A stretch of DNA of 10,024 nt from Gloeopeniophorella convolvens (taxonomy: Eukaryota > Basidiomycota > Agaricomycetes > Russulales): NCBI GenBank assembly GCA_022496205.1, contig WTXD01000403.1, positions 1-10,024 of the forward strand, written 5' to 3'. Each line of letters opens with the position of its first letter. The stretch's first letter is position 1. A program made the translations under genes and the position numbers. This document shows positions 922 through 9,935 of the stretch, piece by piece. Under the pieces are notes generated by a model. The model was given only the letters and a program-made list of their open reading frames with translations. It did not search any database and was not told the DNA's origin.

Positions 922-1343
922 GCACTTTCAAGAACCCACCCCTACTGGGTTATTTATTTCTACACCTTCAACCCACTTAAGTTCATCAGCAAAACCGACC
1001 GGGATTGATAAGAATTGATGAGAATTGATGAAAACTACTGCCAATGATAAGTGTAAGACATAGCAAGATGTCGACTGGTAACGCTTTGACTTAGCGAGAT
1101 GCTAATTTACCTACCTCACACAGTCCCTGTCTTGTAGTTATCAACCCCCATCGACGCGCGTGTTGTGTCACCTGGCTATATCAATTCGTTAGTATGCTTG
1201 ACAATGTCTGGTAGACACAATATCAATGACACTGTACCTTTGATAACCCTTGATTGCGAGACTGTATACCTTTATCACACTCACTACTAACCTTGCCATG
1301 CATATATCACACGTTGTCAATCTAGTTGAATCTTTATAAAGAG
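922..1343. other. Unassigned spacer between solo LTR and transposase gene
   Basis: No gene is visible. It should contain the 3' untranslated region of the minus-strand transposase and perhaps the left end of the Plavaka element, but I could not identify a terminal inverted repeat without the other end. A short tandem repeat sits at 1002-1031. Confidence 0.45.
1002..1031. repeat. Short 10-bp tandem repeat
   Basis: Two adjacent exact copies of AGAATTGATG occupy 1011-1020 and 1021-1030, preceded by a degenerate copy at about 1002-1010. It is microsatellite-scale, with no function inferred. Confidence 0.6.
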
Positions 1344-4260
1344 TTACCACCCCGCGAGCCCAGCGTCCGCAAGTACAAGCTCGTCCCAGTCTACATACTC
1401 CAGCTCCTCATCTGCTCCCCTGGCTCCCGCCCTCCGCCACCCTCTCCTTTCATCTTCCGCGTCCGGATCTTCCCTCTCCAAGTCCTCCCACTCGTCTGCC
1501 CTGCCATCCTCCACCACCTCCACCTCCCAATCGGCCCCCTCCCCATCCTCCCCTGGCCCTTCATCGTCAGTAGCATCTCCGTGAACCTCCGCCTGTCCAC
1601 CCGTGCGCGGCACATGCGGGTCTCGAAGGAGGATCTGGTTGAGGAAGCGCGTGGACCGGTGACTGACACTGCCTCCGCGCTGGCGCATCATCGCGTCTCA
1701 GTCGACGAACCTGTGCATAGTGATTAGATACGAATTCACGTCCCAGTGCATGATACATACATGTTCAAACCATAGCACTCCCAATCCTGGTCTTTGTCCT
1801 CGGGCCTGCGCACAAAGGACTCTCCGAGGCGTTCGGAGGTGCGCCCAAGCGCGAACGCGGGGATAAGGTGGACCGCGCAGATGACTTGTTCAGGATCCAG
1901 GAACCCAAATGCTCCTGGCTCGTCTGCGGGGATGAAGGAGAGGCAGTGCAGTCGCTTTCGCGACCACCCCCCCGGACAGTCATTGTTGATCCCGAACCAG
2001 TGCACCCATAAGAACTCAATTGCCCGCGGCGGCGACACAGCCCCGTCTCCCTGTCGGTGCTGCACTACAGCGTGGAAGACACCTAACACCTGTGCGTACC
2101 AGTATGGATGTTTAGGATTTTTCCGGTTGGTGATGTCTTCAGGGGAGAGCACCATGATGTCGGCATGGGTGCGGGGGTTGATAGAGTCCTGTTGGCGTCG
2201 GACGTCATACGAGGTGTAGTTGATATGTAGAACTTTGTGCTTGTAGATCTGGTCATTCACAATGAAGACGTTGCTACGCTCCTCTTCGCTGAACTCGTGT
2301 TCGTCGCCGTCGAAATATGCCTCGATGATGCGTCGCAAGAAGTGGTCCTTGAGGAGACCATCGAATCCCTAGACAATCGTGAGCGCGAGTCGTCGAAATG
2401 GTGTTTTACTCACCTTCAGAGCTGGATCGCCTTCATGCTTGCCAAGCCATGTTGGGAGGTGGAAGTGGTCGCGCGTCGATTTGGATATGTGATGATGTAT
2501 TGCTGGGTCCGTGAAGGGTAGCGTGTTAGCAATCTCGCTCGACTCTGTTGGGAGTCCATCCCTCTCTCAGAGGTGAGCTTTGATACGTGCCACAACGCGC
2601 CGAGTGACACGCTCGCACCCCTCGTGCTGAGCGATCTGCTTGACGTATTCATTTTTGTTCGTGCGTTGGAAGCGCCGCTTCAACATGCGGTGCTCCAACT
2701 CTCCCTGAAGGTGATGGTCATCGTGCCGGCCTATCAGATTAATCAAGACTCACGTTTTGGGTGCTAGAATGCTCAAGCCCTCCTATCCACCGTATCGTCT
2801 CTACGTAGTCCCCCAGCGCATGCATCTTGTAGGTCGCCAGGTTCAACTCTGTGACAGGAGCCGTTGGCTTGTGGGATGGATCATTGACTGCGGCTTTCTT
2901 GCGCCTGCGCGCCGCTTGATCGTGAGGCATTTCGTTAGTGATGTATTTAGCACACGTCTTTGCCAGGAAGACTCGGACGGTGCGACCGAATTCCTTGAGG
3001 GCGACACCGAGATTCTTGCTCATCGTATCAGTATGCATCCTAAGTTTAGAATACGAGTGAATAGTCACAAGATCAAACAAGAGATCGTCCACGATCTTCT
3101 GGTTCTCGACGTCCTCGCCCAGGAGGCCATCGAAAACCATTGGGGCATACTGTCAAGACGCTGTTTCAGAATGTTTCATGGAGACTCAAGCTTGTATACA
3201 TCTCACCTGGATGATGTCTTCATAGTCTCGCGCGGCCAGCTTCCACAACGACGAGACGTTCCCTGTGAAGCGCCGTATCGTGTCGCGCCCAAAAGTCCCA
3301 ATCATACGGAACCGTTCGTTGAACTCCTGCACCCCGCTGCCACCCGCAGCAACGAGGATGCGCAAGAGGTGTTCTATGATGCGCGGCCCAACGCCGAGCT
3401 CGACCTCATGCAGGAAGTCGGGCAATATGACTTTGTGAAAGTCAAAGCCCAACTCTTGCAGCTTCTCTGAGAATGCATTCTGCATGGCCACCTGCGTTAC
3501 CCGTTCTGACATCTCATGAGCGAGCGCAGGTGCTTACTAGGGTGGGGACCTTCGACCCTGGTAGTTCCTCTTGCACTACCTTTGACTTCACCAGTCACCC
3601 TCCTTCGAATACAAGATTGCGCGCTTTTTTGACTTGCCTTCAGCGTGTAGTGTCATCCACGCGCTTCCGGCGCTGACGCTCCCTCTGGTCCTTCTTGGTG
3701 CCCATCATGATCGCCCGTGACTTGGGGACGAGGCACCGTGGGCACATGAAGGTCCCGTTTCGTTTGATTGTGGCGAGCAATGCTCTGTGCAAGGCAGTAG
3801 TAGTCATCGACACATCAGGTAATAGTGGTGCAACTTACTTTTCCGGGTAGTCCGCCGCATAGATGAGGAGGCGTAGGAACATGAGCATTTGTGTACCGTC
3901 GCCGCAGTCCAGGATTAGCCCGTCCTCGTAAGCGTCGACAAACTTCTTGTTTTGAATCAGGTGGAGGATTTGGTGGATGAGCTCCCACTTGAGGTGCGTG
4001 AGTGTGTTGTTGGTTGCACTCTTGCCGAACTGCTCTCTGTAAGCGTCTTGTACGGTGTCAGGGAGCTCCGCAAATCATCGTAAGTTGGTTATCGCTGTAG
4101 AGAGAAGAGTAGGCACACCGAGGGCATGTAGGCAACATGGTGGCAACTAAACTTTGAAGGCATGGCGCGCGTGTACTTTGACTCGCTTCCAAGGAACATG
4201 TACATAGGCCATAGGTCGTTGGACCCAAAGTTCATGAGGTTGGTTGTCACGTGCTGTGCA
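1344..4260 (-). pseudogene. Plavaka-type DNA transposase, 5'-truncated pseudogene
   Basis: This is the degenerate transposase of an En/Spm-related Plavaka element, a cut-and-paste enzyme that would act on the element's ends. Inferred exons, in transcript order, are 4260-4119, 4065-3839, 3784-3538, 3491-3207, 3149-2754, 2704-2414, 2368-1761 and 1710-1344, and one frame runs through all of them. Introns are 53, 54, 46, 57, 49, 45 and 50 bp, nearly all with good GT-AG signals. Family-like stretches, recognised from memory, include DLWPMYMFLGS, CPRCL, PDFLHEVELGV, TFGRDTIRRF, YKMHALGDYVETIR, GELEHRMLKRRF, NPRTHADIMVLS and VHLIPAFALGRT. The C-terminus is a long acidic tail ending at the TAA at 1346-1344. 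Four TGA codons interrupt it (3642-3640, 3597-3595, 2569-2567, 1700-1698), with no indels. The 5' part is cut off by the LTR at 4261. It is certainly non-functional as it stands. Family assignment is strong; the exact first intron (its acceptor would be the weak GAG) is less sure. Confidence 0.88.
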
Positions 4261-4916
4261 TGTCACGAACACTAAGGCCTCAAGGAGGTCGAACTGCTCA
4301 GAACACTAGAGCAAATCCAGCCCTACCAGTAAATACCCTACGCGTCGCTCACAATGCGACACGTACCACTCACATTGCGACTACAAGTCGAAATGCATCA
4401 CGTGACCCTTCACCCCCATTCCTCGCCCTACTCCCTAATGGCCAATTAACTCTGGAATACCCCCAAGATTTCGGACTAGGAATCTCTCAGAATGGCCATA
4501 TTACTCGTCCCAAAGTAACCAGAACCTTGATCAAGGTGAAACACTTCATGCGTCCTCTTTGGGACTCTGATCATCAAGAACTCCATGGGGCCTCAAGCCC
4601 CACTCTGCGATGGAATCTAAGAAGCGTATCAGAGAGGAGAGGTTATGGGGAATCCCCTCTGGAATCCCCATCAGTAATTAGACCAGATTCGTCTGGGGGG
4701 TCTCCAGTAGTATATAAGACCCCCATGTATCGCCCAGTGGTCCTCAGACTGTCCATCTGTGGCACTCTCATCTGTACCTAGCACTGCAATAGCACTGTTA
4801 GTGTGTTCCCACTCTACTCCTGCACATCGCAGCTCATCTTCTGTCTTCCCCCTTGTGACGCTCTCCAAACCCCTCTGCTATCCTCTCTGCGCGCACCCCG
4901 CGAGTGAGTCCTGACA
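4261..4916 (+). mobile_element. 5' LTR of the Gypsy-type element, 656 bp
   Basis: The left boundary is where transposase coding similarity stops, and the sequence there begins TGTCAC. The right boundary is taken at TGACA, giving 5-bp inverted ends TGTCA...TGACA, followed two bases later by a TGG that could begin a primer-binding site. A TATA box lies at 4711-4718. The target duplication should be GTGCA (4256-4260), but its partner is outside the window. Small internal repeats include GGAATCCCC at 4649-4657 and 4661-4669, and an imperfect 14-bp pair at 4347-4360 and 4368-4381. The left end is more certain than the right. Confidence 0.78.
4711..4718 (+). promoter_or_regulatory. TATA box of the Gypsy LTR
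   Basis: TATATAAG lies about 200 bp before the LTR's 3' end, where the U3/R boundary is expected. It would drive the genomic RNA, starting near 4740-4750. Confidence 0.6.
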
Positions 4917-4918
4917 TT

Positions 4919-4936
4919 TGGACAGTCTCTTACACC
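4919..4936 (+). promoter_or_regulatory. Candidate minus-strand primer-binding site
   Basis: TGGACAGTCTCTTACACC begins two bases after the proposed LTR end. Its leading TGG would pair with the CCA end of a tRNA primer. I cannot name the tRNA from memory, and some fungal Gypsy elements self-prime instead. Confidence 0.45.
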
Positions 4937-4957
4937 CTCTGATCAGCTGCGACCTCA

Positions 4958-6202
4958 GTGTCTTACTCTTACTCTGGAATCACTGCACCCCGGACTGCGC
5001 TCCTCTCGGACCGTACTCGACCTCAGGCACTGATTCGCCCCTCATCCTATCTTGACCTTGACGCTCCCACCTCTGGACTGTCCAACCCCCTTGACTACGG
5101 CACTCCCACTCGCGGACTGTCTCCTGAACTCCAGTACCCTCCTCTCGTCTCCACTCCTCGTCCTCCACCTACGCCTCGTTCTCCATCATATCATCCGCGC
5201 TCCCCATCCCCAATCGACGTCGAACCAGGACAAATCCTCGACGTTCTCACAGTACCACCTCGCTCTCCCTCTCCTCATCATTCAGCCTTCGACTTTCTAG
5301 TCCGCCTCAGAGCTCAACAGGTGCAAGAACGCTTTGCAGAAATAGTACGCACTTCAGCCATCCCTCAGTCTCCCACTCCTGGCCCCTCTCGCACTGGTGA
5401 ACAAGCTCCCAGCCCCTTGGTCGAGCCTACTCCAGCCTCCCCTGTCGTATCCACTCCCCAGCCTCGCCTGTCGCGTTTTTCACCTCTTTACTCCCCTTCG
5501 CATCTCTCTATCCTTGCCCCTTCTCCTCATCCTGCATCGTCGACGCATACTCCTGCGCTCAGTCCTGCTCCTGCTCCTGCTCCTTATCCTATATCAACTC
5601 CCATACCCTCGCGAGCAGCGACGGTATCCCCTTTAATCTTCGCACCCAATCCAGCACCTGCTCCCGCCCTTGAAATCTTAGTCGACGTCGCAGTTGAGCA
5701 AATCCCAGACCACGCACCTCCTCCATACCAGGCTCCACCTCGTCGCTCTCCCTCCATCTCTGAGTTCAGTGAGGATCTCACTGACTACGCCGAGAACCAC
5801 TTCGTTCTCCCTCTCCGTGCACCATCCCCTGACTGCGCTCACACCAACCACTACTACCACGAGCGCATCGCCCAAGTCCTACACGGTTACCCAGCAGCAG
5901 TCGGAAACCATCACCAGCCTTTCCACGTCCCTCGCATCAGCAGTGCCCTTTACTACCTCACCCACTTCGACGAATTCCTCCCTGAAGTACGTCCCTTCAG
6001 GTCGATCATCCTCCCCAAGCACTATATCACCATCCCTTCCACGCGCGTGAATGGAGACGGTCCACCATACGCACCACAGTATATCTGCGCCGTCACCGCT
6101 TACACTCCCCCTTGTCGAGAACTCCCCCTTGGTGCCATCCGTTACGACTTTACCTATCACCTCATCCACACCTTCAAAAACCTCGCGTTCGGCACTCAAT
6201 GA
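4958..6202 (+). CDS. Pro/Ser-rich protein encoded upstream of gag
   Basis: This is an open frame of 414 codons in the place where gag normally starts, 41 bp after the LTR. I do not recognise the protein. Residues about 1-285 are a low-complexity Pro/Ser/Thr/Ala tract with many SP, PxP and APAPAP motifs. The DNA at 5563-5585 is a CTCCTG-type microsatellite. From about residue 290 the sequence becomes ordinary globular protein, with runs such as HYYHERIAQVLHGYP and YYLTHFDEFLPEVRPF. The frame has no ATG at all: its first codon is GTG at 4958, with an in-frame TGA at 4940-4942, so a true start has probably been lost by mutation or lies in a spliced leader. The TGA at 6200-6202 may be a premature stop rather than a natural end, since the sequence stays protein-like afterwards. 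A structural or RNA-binding role is only a guess. Confidence 0.6.
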   Translation: MSYSYSGITAPRTALLSDRTRPQALIRPSSYLDLDAPTSGLSNPLDYGTPTRGLSPELQYPPLVSTPRPPPTPRSPSYHPRSPSPIDVEPGQILDVLTVPPRSPSPHHSAFDFLVRLRAQQVQERFAEIVRTSAIPQSPTPGPSRTGEQAPSPLVEPTPASPVVSTPQPRLSRFSPLYSPSHLSILAPSPHPASSTHTPALSPAPAPAPYPISTPIPSRAATVSPLIFAPNPAPAPALEILVDVAVEQIPDHAPPPYQAPPRRSPSISEFSEDLTDYAENHFVLPLRAPSPDCAHTNHYYHERIAQVLHGYPAAVGNHHQPFHVPRISSALYYLTHFDEFLPEVRPFRSIILPKHYITIPSTRVNGDGPPYAPQYICAVTAYTPPCRELPLGAIRYDFTYHLIHTFKNLAFGTQ

Positions 6203-8065
6203 CTCTACGAAGGAGCAAGAATCCCCTTCGTCATATCGACTTCCTCGACGGCCGCGTCCTCACCACTGAAGGCAACCTCCACTTCAACCACGGTCGCCTC
6301 ATCCGCATCAACAACCGGTACTCCGTCGTGAACGACGCCTCAGCCTTTACCCCCACCTCAAACTCTTCACCGCCTACGCTCGCGTTCCCAACAACATCAA
6401 GCAGATAGGCGACGATCCCTTCCTCGTTATCGACTCCAACCTCCTCGCCATCGTCCATATTCCAGTAGAAGAGTTCCTGTAAAACCAGTAAACCAAGTCG
6501 GCTACCTTGTACCAGTAGTAGTATCTGCCCAATCGTTTTCTAGAGTGCGTAGCACCTCTGTGGGAGATACTATTGACTCAGACTCGACTCAGTGGAAGCA
6601 CCACCCCAAGTATTGCTTGAAGGACTCCATCTGATCCCTTACAACGACACAATCGCCTAACCTTTGACCAAGCCTACCGACGCTTCTTGACAAATACTAT
6701 CAAGTCCTTCATCGCATTATCCGACTCCAGTTCTACGACCCTCGTGCTCGCGTCCACGACTTCTCCACCGACACTCTAGTTCGCTCTGACTCTTGGCTTA
6801 CCCCGGTCCTAACAAGACTTCGGCGATCTCTCCCATTGGACAACTCTTTGACAACGATCTACACCTCAGTCACTGGTTCAACGCTGAAAGGAACATTGTC
6901 CAAAGTGCTGTAGAAGAACAGCACCTCTTCTGGTTCCTTCAACGACCTAGCGGTGTACGCTGGGAACCCATCCAAACCACCAACCTCTGGCTCGAACTCG
7001 AGCTCTTCTGGTGGAACATCGTCCAAGTCCACAAAGAACATCTCATTGAGAAAATCCTTACCGGCCATCGAATCTACTATCTTGAATGTTTCATCACTAC
7101 TCCGTACCAGACTCGTCTCCATTTCGCTCAACTTGTCCTACTTCAAGAAAACCCTCTAGTACCTCTCTACTCTATCCGCTCCGGCCCTTCTGCAACTATA
7201 CCTTGCATCTGCAAGACACACACTGGATCATAAGTAATCCTCTCGATCTCGACCTTATCCAATCAAGCAACGATTCCTATATCCTGTACCACGACGACCT
7301 CCTCTTATTCCTCCAGCAACCCCTGAATCAGACACCGGAGAAAATAGTTGGAACAACGCCCCAAGCATCATCAGCAACTTCAGCCTCGACGAAGAACAAG
7401 AAGAACAGACAACGACGTCCCCAGCATCCACACTATCAGCGACCTGACCTACAAGACACCAGTGACCTTACCGACACCCAGTATTTAGAGATCTAGTCAG
7501 ATCCTCCTGTATCCTGTATTTTAGACTATCAGAGTCTTTCTGTCGCAATCCTGGCATCCAGCCTAATCGTCGACGGTCTCCCAGACACCGTCCTCCGACA
7601 CCACTACCGCAAGTAGCGTTACCACCAGTACAACGTACGCCAACCCCTGAAGATCCAAGAAACCTCAGCAGAACCCGACTCATCGACATCCAACGTGATA
7701 ACGTTGCGCACCACCCAGAAATCATCTACATCGGCCAAACCTTGCCTACCCGAAACTACCTTGGTTTTCACAACTTCCGACGCTGGTGCAGAGAAGAATA
7801 CAATCGTCGCCAACTCCGTATCATCAGTTTCCCCCACGATCTCCACGAACTCGCCAACTTTACTAGCGATCCTCTGCACTTTGAAGGCTATCTGTGGAAG
7901 CGATCTACAAGAATCTTTCGCGACCACATCGAAGAAGACTACGCCCGCATCGAACGCCATACCATTGATCGACGTCGTCCTATCCTTAACCACGCTTTCA
8001 CCATCACATATCATCACAACGTCAACACCTACACTGTGCAAGTTGTAGGACTCCCTATCATCTGA
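6203..8065 (+). pseudogene. Frameshifted continuation of the pre-gag coding region
   Basis: This stretch reads as protein in successive frames rather than one. Coding-like pieces with strong third-position C bias are about 6203-6235, 6238-6340, 6342-6479, 6482-6600, 6590-6657, 6654-6685, 6686-6840, 6840-7190, 7190-7340 and 7340-8065. Examples are TTEGNLHFNHGRLIRINNRY, YARVPNNIKQIGDDPF, WFNAERNIVQSAVEEQH and LGFHNFRRWCREEYNRR. The last piece is open to the TGA at 8063-8065 apart from two TGA codons (7445-7447 and 7463-7465). Together with 4958-6202 it implies an ancestral protein of roughly 1,030 residues. I recognise no domain. The boundaries between pieces are approximate. It is either a decayed gene or an intact gene damaged by sequence errors. 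Confidence 0.6.
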
Positions 8066-8075
8066 ATCACTCTTT

Positions 8076-9935
8076 ATGAGTACCGAATTCCAAAGATACA
8101 TCAAAGAGAACAATTGGAACGACCCTAGCCCAGAAGAAATCACTGACATCTCCCGACATCTACCTCCCGGAAGCATTATTAGGAAAATCAGACTTGACGA
8201 AGAAAGCGGACACGTCTACGCCATCGCCACAGTCCTTGGACGAACTCTCGTCCTCGACGAGGCAACCAAGCAAACAGTTTTCACCACTTATCAAGTACCA
8301 GTCCTCGACGCACTCAACGCTTACTACCCACACGCCGATCAACTTCAAGGTTACGCCTGGGCGTCCTTAGAAGGACTTTACAAAGACAAGAAAGTCCGTT
8401 GGAACGAAGGAAGGAAACGGTGGCAATACTTCAACAACCAACCAGTATACTTTGACCCTCCTGAACAAACCCGCGTCGTACCACCACCTACACCACCTCC
8501 CTCAGACGACTCAGACGAAGTCAACGAACTCCTAGAATCTACTCAAGAAACCATCCATCGTATCTCCAGAAAAGTTACTCCATTAGGCACCCCATTAGCT
8601 GCAAACTCGCCTCGCACCATACCTGGAGGCTTTGGTACCCCGGAACGTCATCCATCTCCTCAACAAAACCCAATTCCTGAAGAATCGTCTGAACCAGTTG
8701 CGCCTCCATCGTCTCAGCCTCAAGAACTTGTACCTTTCGTCCAGACTCCTACGCCTCCTGTCTCTCGTATCGGACCGACTCAGACTCCAGTTGCCTCTTC
8801 ATCTCGTCAGACTCAAGTACCGCCTCCATTTAAACCACCAGTAAACCCACCATCACAAGGAACCACTACTGCTCCGCCCAAGATGTCTTCCAAATTACTC
8901 GGCAGCCCACCAGAACCCTTTGACGGCGCAGAAGCCACTGCCCGCCAATTCCTTTCTCATCTTAACAACTATTATTCGCTCAATGAAGACCTGTATAACA
9001 CCGACACCAAGAAGATCGCCGACGCCTATACTCACTTTAAAAACAACACCCGTGCTGGGGAATGGGCTCGCGTCCGCATGAATGACGCACTCACGAATAA
9101 AGCCTACGGCACCTGGAAAGCCTTTGTCGACGCCTTTGAAACTATGTTCACCAACCCGGACCAGAAACAACTCGCTATCAACAAGTTCTTCCAGTACCCA
9201 CAAGGCATTCGCCGCTTCCGCGAATGGTACCAAGATTGGGATGTTGCACGCACTGAAGCTGCCATCACTGACGACACTGTCACCATCCCCGTTCTCCGCC
9301 ATAACTTGAACAATCAACTTGAGCAGAAGTACTCTGCTGTCGCAAACAAACCAAAGACGCTTGCGGAAGTCGTTAAGATTATCCAAGAACTTGACGACTC
9401 CTACTGGACGAACCGTCCTAGGAGTACCTTCCGAGGTGGACGCGGACGAAGCAATATCCGCTCCCTCGAAGAAGGAGAAATCTCACAAGTCAATGCGACC
9501 ACTGCATTTCCCCCACTCACTACTGAAGAACGCAAGCGTCGTCGCGACAACAATCTTTGCATGTACTGTGGAGGAGGAGGACACTGGTCCGACAAATGCC
9601 TCAAGAAGCCTAGCGGACCCTCATCTTCCACTTCGTTCAATTTTAACCGCCGAGGTAGAGGAAACTTTAGAGGATCATTCCGAGGCCGCGGACGCGGCGG
9701 ATCCTTTACTCCCTCATCTAACTCTCGCAATCTCATTGCGAATGACCCATCATCCTCCTCCACTACCGACACTTCTATCCAAGCTATCAATAGCTGGTAT
9801 GCTCAAGCCACTCCCGAGGCCAAGCAAGCCGTTTCCGACATCATCTCCCCATCTACCACTTCGAGAAGAAGGATTTTTGAACCGTCCCATAGCCGCACTG
9901 TCTATTGGGACTCTTCGTGTTCAGAGGACATATGA
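8076..9935 (+). CDS. gag: Gag protein of the Gypsy-type retrotransposon
   Basis: This is an intact frame of 619 residues starting at ATG 8076. Gag assembles into the virus-like particle and packages the element RNA in the cytoplasm. Residues 1-130 form an unrecognised globular N-terminal region. Residues about 135-270 are a Pro/Ser-rich linker. Residues about 275-440 match the retrotransposon capsid-like Gag style (EPFDGAEATARQFLSHLNNYY, then a helical region with WKAFVDAFETMF and IRRFREWYQDWD). A CCHC zinc knuckle, C495-x2-C498-x4-H503-x4-C508, follows, then an Arg/Gly-rich stretch (RRGRGNFRGSFRGRGRGG) suited to nucleic-acid binding. The long N-terminal region before the capsid domain is more than a minimal Gag needs. 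The preceding frame stops 10 nt upstream of this ATG, and a downstream +1 frame overlaps its end. Confidence 0.9.
   Translation: MSTEFQRYIKENNWNDPSPEEITDISRHLPPGSIIRKIRLDEESGHVYAIATVLGRTLVLDEATKQTVFTTYQVPVLDALNAYYPHADQLQGYAWASLEGLYKDKKVRWNEGRKRWQYFNNQPVYFDPPEQTRVVPPPTPPPSDDSDEVNELLESTQETIHRISRKVTPLGTPLAANSPRTIPGGFGTPERHPSPQQNPIPEESSEPVAPPSSQPQELVPFVQTPTPPVSRIGPTQTPVASSSRQTQVPPPFKPPVNPPSQGTTTAPPKMSSKLLGSPPEPFDGAEATARQFLSHLNNYYSLNEDLYNTDTKKIADAYTHFKNNTRAGEWARVRMNDALTNKAYGTWKAFVDAFETMFTNPDQKQLAINKFFQYPQGIRRFREWYQDWDVARTEAAITDDTVTIPVLRHNLNNQLEQKYSAVANKPKTLAEVVKIIQELDDSYWTNRPRSTFRGGRGRSNIRSLEEGEISQVNATTAFPPLTTEERKRRRDNNLCMYCGGGGHWSDKCLKKPSGPSSSTSFNFNRRGRGNFRGSFRGRGRGGSFTPSSNSRNLIANDPSSSSTTDTSIQAINSWYAQATPEAKQAVSDIISPSTTSRRRIFEPSHSRTVYWDSSCSEDI
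9558..9599 (+). other. CCHC zinc knuckle within gag
   Basis: CMYCGGGGHWSDKC has the C-x2-C-x4-H-x4-C spacing of the retroviral and retrotransposon nucleocapsid knuckle, used to bind RNA. All four ligands are present. Confidence 0.93.

Follow-up and report, generated by a model that had tools for sequence, protein, structure and literature searches.

A block of three AUG-less reading frames ahead of gag in a fungal chromodomain retrotransposon, with candidate start codons assembled by splicing

The DNA analyzed in this study is a 10,024-nucleotide stretch of the Gloeopeniophorella convolvens genome (contig C339, GenBank WTXD01000403.1), hereafter called the window. An LTR retrotransposon fills it from position 4261 rightwards, represented by its 5' part with an LTR, a block of pre-gag coding sequence and gag, and the end of the contig lies near the start of pol (Table 1). 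We assign it to the Ty3/gypsy retrotransposons with a chromodomain. Its full length is ~10.2 kb, as two further copies (C382 and C398) have LTRs paired on one strand ~10.2 kb apart, with matches to gag and to the pre-gag ORFs in between. The window stops short of pol, and the pol domains were read from the C382 copy, which has matches to an aspartyl protease (1e-6), RVT_1 (1.7e-14), RT_RNaseH (4.2e-38), integrase (2.7e-22 and 6.4e-14) and Chromo (4.6e-14), giving the order PR-RT-RH-INT plus a chromodomain. There are at least 43 LTR-like matches in the 36.7-Mb genome (40 of 162 candidates scored), and our alignment of the family holds 21 copies, namely the window and 20 other loci, with 16 additional pre-gag stretches of the family lying outside the alignment. 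Within the LTR a hypervariable stretch at 4800-4859 (diversity 0.199) is flanked by conserved parts on both sides.

Table 1. Position of the features of the element in the window; the leader exon and both introns are candidates read from sequence motifs.
Feature	Position	Strand	Remarks
5' LTR	4261..4916	+	TGTCA...TGACA; left edge at 4261 in 15/15 aligned loci reaching it
TATA box	4711..4717	+	TATATAA; identical letters in 20/20 alignment rows
Leader exon (inferred)	4740..4903	+	no ATG common to more than 4/21 copies; last base A
Putative 55-nt intron	4904..4958	+	donor GTGAGT 4904-4909, branch-like CTGAT 4939-4943, acceptor AG 4957-4958
ORF1	4959..6482	+	~508 codons when intact; N-terminal part rich in Pro/Ser, C-terminal part of ~235 residues
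ORF1-ORF2 intergenic region	6483..6592	+	indel-tolerant part, then conserved at ~6540-6599 (diversity 0.026)
ORF2	6593..7496	+	303 codons in intact copies; conserved stop UAG 7494-7496
Candidate ORF2-ORF3 intron past the UAG (weak)	7481..7584	+	GTATTT ... CTAAT 7563-7567 ... CAG
ORF3	7497..8065	+	up to 189 codons, no Met; same frame as ORF2 after the UAG
gag	8076..9935	+	AUG 8076 in weak context (TTTAUGA); first ATG common to most copies downstream of the promoter
gag N-terminal extension	residues 1-269	+	ATG-free
Capsid/zinc-knuckle part of gag	8883..9935	+	starts at the next ATG of any frame after 8076

The segment from 4958 to 8065 had been singled out by the original prediction as coding-like and as a candidate for an undescribed component, and both statements are borne out. 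It has matches throughout the family, its variation falls mostly at one codon position over the greater part of its length and its dN/dS is well below 1, so that there is an undescribed coding block of ~3.1 kb ahead of gag that is common to the family and under purifying selection, and no Pfam cut-off was reached by its pieces as found in the window (pieces, not full intact ORFs). In the window's own 36.7-Mb genome the pieces at 4958-6202, 6793-7233 and 7742-8065 have at least 79, 46 and 42 matched stretches, respectively. Inside the family the block is present across copies rather than missing from other members, and its distance from gag is constant, as it begins at 4250 with gag at 7366 in the C105 copy and at 4958 with gag at 8076 in the window. 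What did not hold is the proposal of a single protein of ~1,030 residues or of one split Gag. A search of intact members for one uninterrupted pre-gag ORF instead found three ORFs parted by conserved stops, with stop-to-stop lengths in the best-kept copies of 509-513 codons for ORF1, 308 for ORF2 and 189 for ORF3. The ORF1 stop is followed by ~45 nt with indels in non-multiples of three, then by a highly conserved stretch and then by ORF2. The copy in the window is itself broken, with ORF1 halting at 6202 and the later frames shifted, including a frameshifted ORF2.

The family falls into two subfamily types, A and B. Calculation of dN/dS, a test suggested along with the original prediction, gave values below 1 for all three ORFs. 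ORF1, for which the values cover six of the seven copies that retain 480 open codons or more, ranges from 0.11 to 0.34 overall, with 0.11-0.21 within type A and, between types, 0.21-0.33 for the Pro/Ser-rich first 275 codons and 0.21-0.34 for the rest. For ORF2 the median is 0.24 (six copies) and for ORF3 it is 0.45 (five copies), with frameshifted ends inflating the two values. The 3.1 kb thus constitute three genes, and it is nearly certain that ORF1, ORF2 and ORF3 specify real proteins. Over the C-terminal part of ORF1 (~5790-6480) types A and B share 53% protein identity (L042 versus L052) with synonymous divergence of dS 1.2-1.9, while the neighboring DNA is ~89% alike, which suggests either a recombination swap or fast evolution.

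None of these genes appears to have a conventional start. We tested five sequences of ORF1, two of ORF2 and one of ORF3 and found no in-frame Met codon in any of them. The deficit extends to all frames, with the best shared ATGs between 4740 and 8075 present in only 6/21 and 6/19 copies. U3 retains nine ATGs, each of which is present in 14-20 of 17-20 copies, and the gag ATG at 8076 is found in 12/12. The 3,331-nt leader of L042 contains three ATGs versus 25.6 expected from a first-order Markov model over all frames; in the leaders of L041, L052, L046 and L051, where counts cover 1.7-3.1 kb each, none is observed versus 19.6, 22.6, 16.5 and 13.1 expected. CAT, the reverse word of ATG, is not depleted in the leaders. 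We also utilized synonymous shuffles that preserve the protein and its codon use. Of the seven ORF1 copies that reach 480 codons, five entered this test (L039 and L045, with one and seven ATGs at 4740-6480, were omitted). Seven of eight ORF1-3 sequences have no out-of-frame ATG versus 2.5-5.0 expected (P 0.000-0.047), the exception being L042 ORF1 with 2 versus 4.2 (P 0.14). The same test gives 0 versus 3.2 for the gag extension at 8079-8882 (P 0.006), where ATGs are present in up to 4/9 aligned copies, and normal out-of-frame counts for the capsid part (9 versus 5.8) and for pol (17 versus 11.6; 15 versus 15.2). Older copies carry scattered leader ATGs, up to 33 in L050, that we read as decay. 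There is additionally a fixed ATG at 4725 (20/20 copies), only 14 bases beyond the TATA box. Transcription is assumed to start at or beyond ~4740; were it to start before 4725, the transcripts would carry a short upstream ORF.

One could argue that the pre-gag block is a decayed or captured stretch with no function in the element and that its shortage of ATGs simply reflects base composition. The region is rich in C and poor in G, and the window copy is only one of many that are broken. However, dN/dS is far below 1 over the deep divergence between types A and B, and the shuffles, in which protein and codon use are held constant, still predict ATGs that are absent here, while CAT, the capsid and pol are normal. 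This explanation is consequently very improbable, and we have little doubt that the ATG purge of the pre-gag leader is real.

Inspection of the sequences at which ORF1 and ORF2 begin points to a way in which start codons could be supplied. The putative first intron has a GTRAGT donor, a branch-like CTGAT and a YAG|TG acceptor in 21/21 copies, the base preceding the donor is A in all of them, and its length is 55 nt in 20/21 copies and 56 in L040. It spans the end of the LTR and the expected location of the primer site. Joining of the exon's last base to the first two bases of ORF1 would yield the start codon A(4903)|TG(4959-4960), and joining of the same base to an acceptor ahead of ORF2 would yield A(4903)|TG(6593-6594). 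The ORF2 acceptor (AG 6591-6592) reads YAG|TG in 17/17 copies and is preceded by TTGAC (6573-6577) in 17/17, and the dip in diversity to 0.026 covers it. Only four YAGTG sites between 4740 and 8400 are kept in at least 80% of copies, and two of these are the exact ORF1 and ORF2 starts. A stop codon lies five codons before the start in 20/21 copies for ORF1 and in 15/16 scored copies for ORF2. L040 has an extra base directly ahead of the YAG of ORF1, and L045 lacks one directly ahead of the YAG of ORF2; both indels fit a coding sequence that opens with the TG. The U5 donor is also the sole GTRAGT in the leader of L042, the one leader searched. Neither spliced junction occurs in any of the genomic copies, an absence that would follow from a primer site inside the intron and equally from a lack of splicing. 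The intron ahead of ORF2 would measure ~1.7 kb, which is long for a fungus. On the strength of these conserved motifs a splice-made AUG for ORF1 and ORF2 is the probable reading.

A different account of the same regions places the start of ORF1, and perhaps those of ORF2 and ORF3, at near-cognate codons of the unspliced RNA, with most ribosomes scanning on to gag. Such leaky scanning agrees with the scarcity of ATG in every frame as far as gag and onward to 8883, and with the presence of GTG at both the ORF1 and ORF2 starts in the alignments. There is also a precedent in rice tungro bacilliform virus, for which excerpts of one study (PMC5902531) describe leaky scanning over ~900 nt of ORFs devoid of internal AUGs, an AUU start codon and a spliced RNA for one product. 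However, the GTGs have T at -3, a poor context, and it is less easy to see how ribosomes would get past ORF1 to ORF2 in this manner. Non-AUG initiation also leaves unexplained the conserved U5 donor, the branch-like motifs, the YAG before both ORFs and the final A of exon 1, and we regard it as unlikely relative to start codons made by splicing.

How ORF3 would be entered is less apparent, as there is no conserved YAG|TG in its own frame. ORF2 and ORF3 share one frame in L042, where removal of a 105-nt intron (GTATTT...CTAAT...CAG) would fuse the two in frame past the UAG; this is the only candidate with a branch-like motif among nine listed of 15 candidate introns. The ORF2-ORF3 junction is also unusually conserved, with a diversity of 0.028-0.030 at 7440-7559. 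Expression of ORF3 through this intron is our best guess, and a tentative one. The same observations can be taken further, to suppose that ORF1-3 belong as exons to one or two larger proteins made by splicing (such as an ORF2-ORF3 product) whose start codon has gone unrecognized. Against such larger proteins, the GTATTT donor is weak and there is no conserved donor before the stop of ORF1. Furthermore, this stop (TAA 6480-6482) is kept in both types despite differing preceding codons, which read ..FL-stop in type A and ..LE-stop in type B. Exons of larger proteins appear improbable, more so than initiation at near-cognate codons.

The gag gene has two in-frame candidate starts, of which 8076 has T at -3 while 8883 lies in strong context (AAGAUGU) with A at -3. 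ATGs at offsets of 0, 807, 907 and 986 from the gag start form a pattern found in 5/6 distinct scorable copies (the window, C398, C382, C34 and C334, the last with one extra ATG); C105 differs, and four loci are without the exact start motif. The window gag matches Retrotrans_gag (0.0015), Ty3_capsid (0.0019) and zf-CCHC_5 (0.35), all below curated cut-offs, and a C-X2-C-X4-H-X4-C zinc knuckle is visible in its sequence (CMYCGGGGHWSDKC). At ~9850-9935 in the window the gag match of many copies breaks off around codon 601, with residues 595-619 matched separately; there may be a frameshift at this gag/pol boundary.

The overall model that we favor, with a probability of roughly 0.6, is that three genes were gained between the 5' LTR and gag and are controlled by start codons that would be present only after splicing. 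A leader exon ending in A before the GTRAGT donor in U5 would be joined to TG at the acceptor of ORF1 or ORF2, and the AUGs so created would lie in good context with G at -3 (GCG-AUG-U for ORF1 and GCG-AUG-G for ORF2). Unspliced RNA would offer no AUG until gag, where scanning ribosomes would initiate at 8076 in its weak context or, through leaky scanning, at 8883 in its strong one, giving an extended Gag and a core Gag, respectively. A purge of AUGs along the entire leader is understandable only if ribosomes pass through it, and we lean slightly towards scanning of ~3.3 kb to gag on the unspliced RNA. Both splicing itself and the placement of the primer site within the intron are inferred from the nucleotide sequence; if correct, only unspliced RNA could serve as genome and as Gag-Pol message. 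The more specific proposal, to which we give somewhat better than even odds, is that the split start codons work as one system. A single leader exon's A would serve at least two acceptors, the 3.3-kb unspliced message would be purged of AUGs in all frames so that gag can be reached by scanning, and one splicing choice would set accessory protein versus Gag-Pol and, with the primer site in the intron, message versus genome.

Searches for relatives of the three proteins returned very little. There is no homologue of the ORF1 protein among 7,991 scored candidates, nor of its residues 275-509 among 574. ORF2 has one protein homologue, P0001, which is 97% identical and derives from an ENA contig of 1,377 bases; its first Met sits where the genome copies read GTG, a position compatible both with a spliced transcript and with a bacterial-style gene call. 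ORF2 has no match on a prokaryote or viral contig, and P0001 has none in PDB. Comparison of profiles built from 3-4 near-identical rows, a weak test, found no link of the ORF1 C-terminus to ORF2, to ORF3 or to the N-terminal part of Gag, and none of ORF2 to ORF3. Single-sequence structure models were unusable (pLDDT 33.5 for P0001 and 47.9 for the window ORF3). An envelope protein is unlikely, as the highest 19-residue hydropathy in ORF1-3 is at most 1.56, and because there are no strongly hydrophobic stretches, accessory or regulatory roles are favored for the products. Two related families (C66 and C393, two of eight matches at 41-48% identity) appear to have no comparable block, and the part they share begins 370 nt to 1.1 kb before their first gag-like frames; this is a weak test, as tblastx against the window finds nothing, not even gag.

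Comparison with known systems places the element among the chromoviruses, with which it shares protease, RT, RNase H, integrase and a C-terminal chromodomain (as read from C382) and probably also a capsid-like gag with a CCHC knuckle, and from which it differs by having three further ORFs before gag. Pol of the Ogre/Tat lineage is not known to carry a chromodomain, and Ogre elements reportedly undergo partial splicing, going by the title of one study. Filing the present element as Ogre/Tat was rejected given the chromodomain in the C382 copy. The likeness to these plant Ty3/gypsy elements, drawn from description and not from sequence, lies in an ORF upstream of gag, such as the extra 1,527 bp ORF that excerpts of PMC2533021 give for a Medicago Ogre family; in contrast, there are three ORFs here, they are AUG-less and pol has a chromodomain. 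Among fungal chromodomain Ty3/gypsy elements most full-length members have one fused or two ORFs according to excerpts of PMC2864245, which in the legend to Figure 3 refers to an "additional ORF" with no known function.

Other parallels concern mode of expression. Rice tungro bacilliform virus and badnaviruses also have AUG-free upstream ORFs that let ribosomes reach a later gene, which is a likeness of mode, with ~900 nt and a non-AUG start there versus ~3.3 kb and proposed splice-made AUGs here. The expression of an extra gene from spliced subgenomic RNA, as proposed here, would be shared with retroviral accessory genes and with errantivirus env, the latter described in excerpts of PMC4276936; these genes lie downstream of pol, whereas the present ORFs lie between the LTR and gag, and the AUG itself would be split by an intron. 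The copia element BARE keeps separate RNA pools for translation and genome with splicing involved (excerpts of PMC3735527), but it splices out pol to make Gag, whereas splicing in the present element would skip Gag. A search of the open-access literature found no described element or retrotransposon with a splice-made start codon. If our model is correct, then a start codon made by splicing would act as an expression switch in an LTR retrotransposon, the leader would be an extreme natural example of an AUG-free scanned leader and three selected protein families in which no known domain was found would be travelling with a chromovirus. Such genes would be missed by ORF finders that require ATG, and the signature of an ATG purge is easily searched for in other genomes.

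To the left of the element the window has two further features. The minus strand at 1300-4200 has broken protein-like frames, four pieces of which have no Pfam match above cut-off and which we take to have the look of a decayed DNA-transposon gene. Positions 432-960 are a remnant of another LTR family, a similar insert of which is found in L039, L045, L053, L056 and L057 (71-94% identity).
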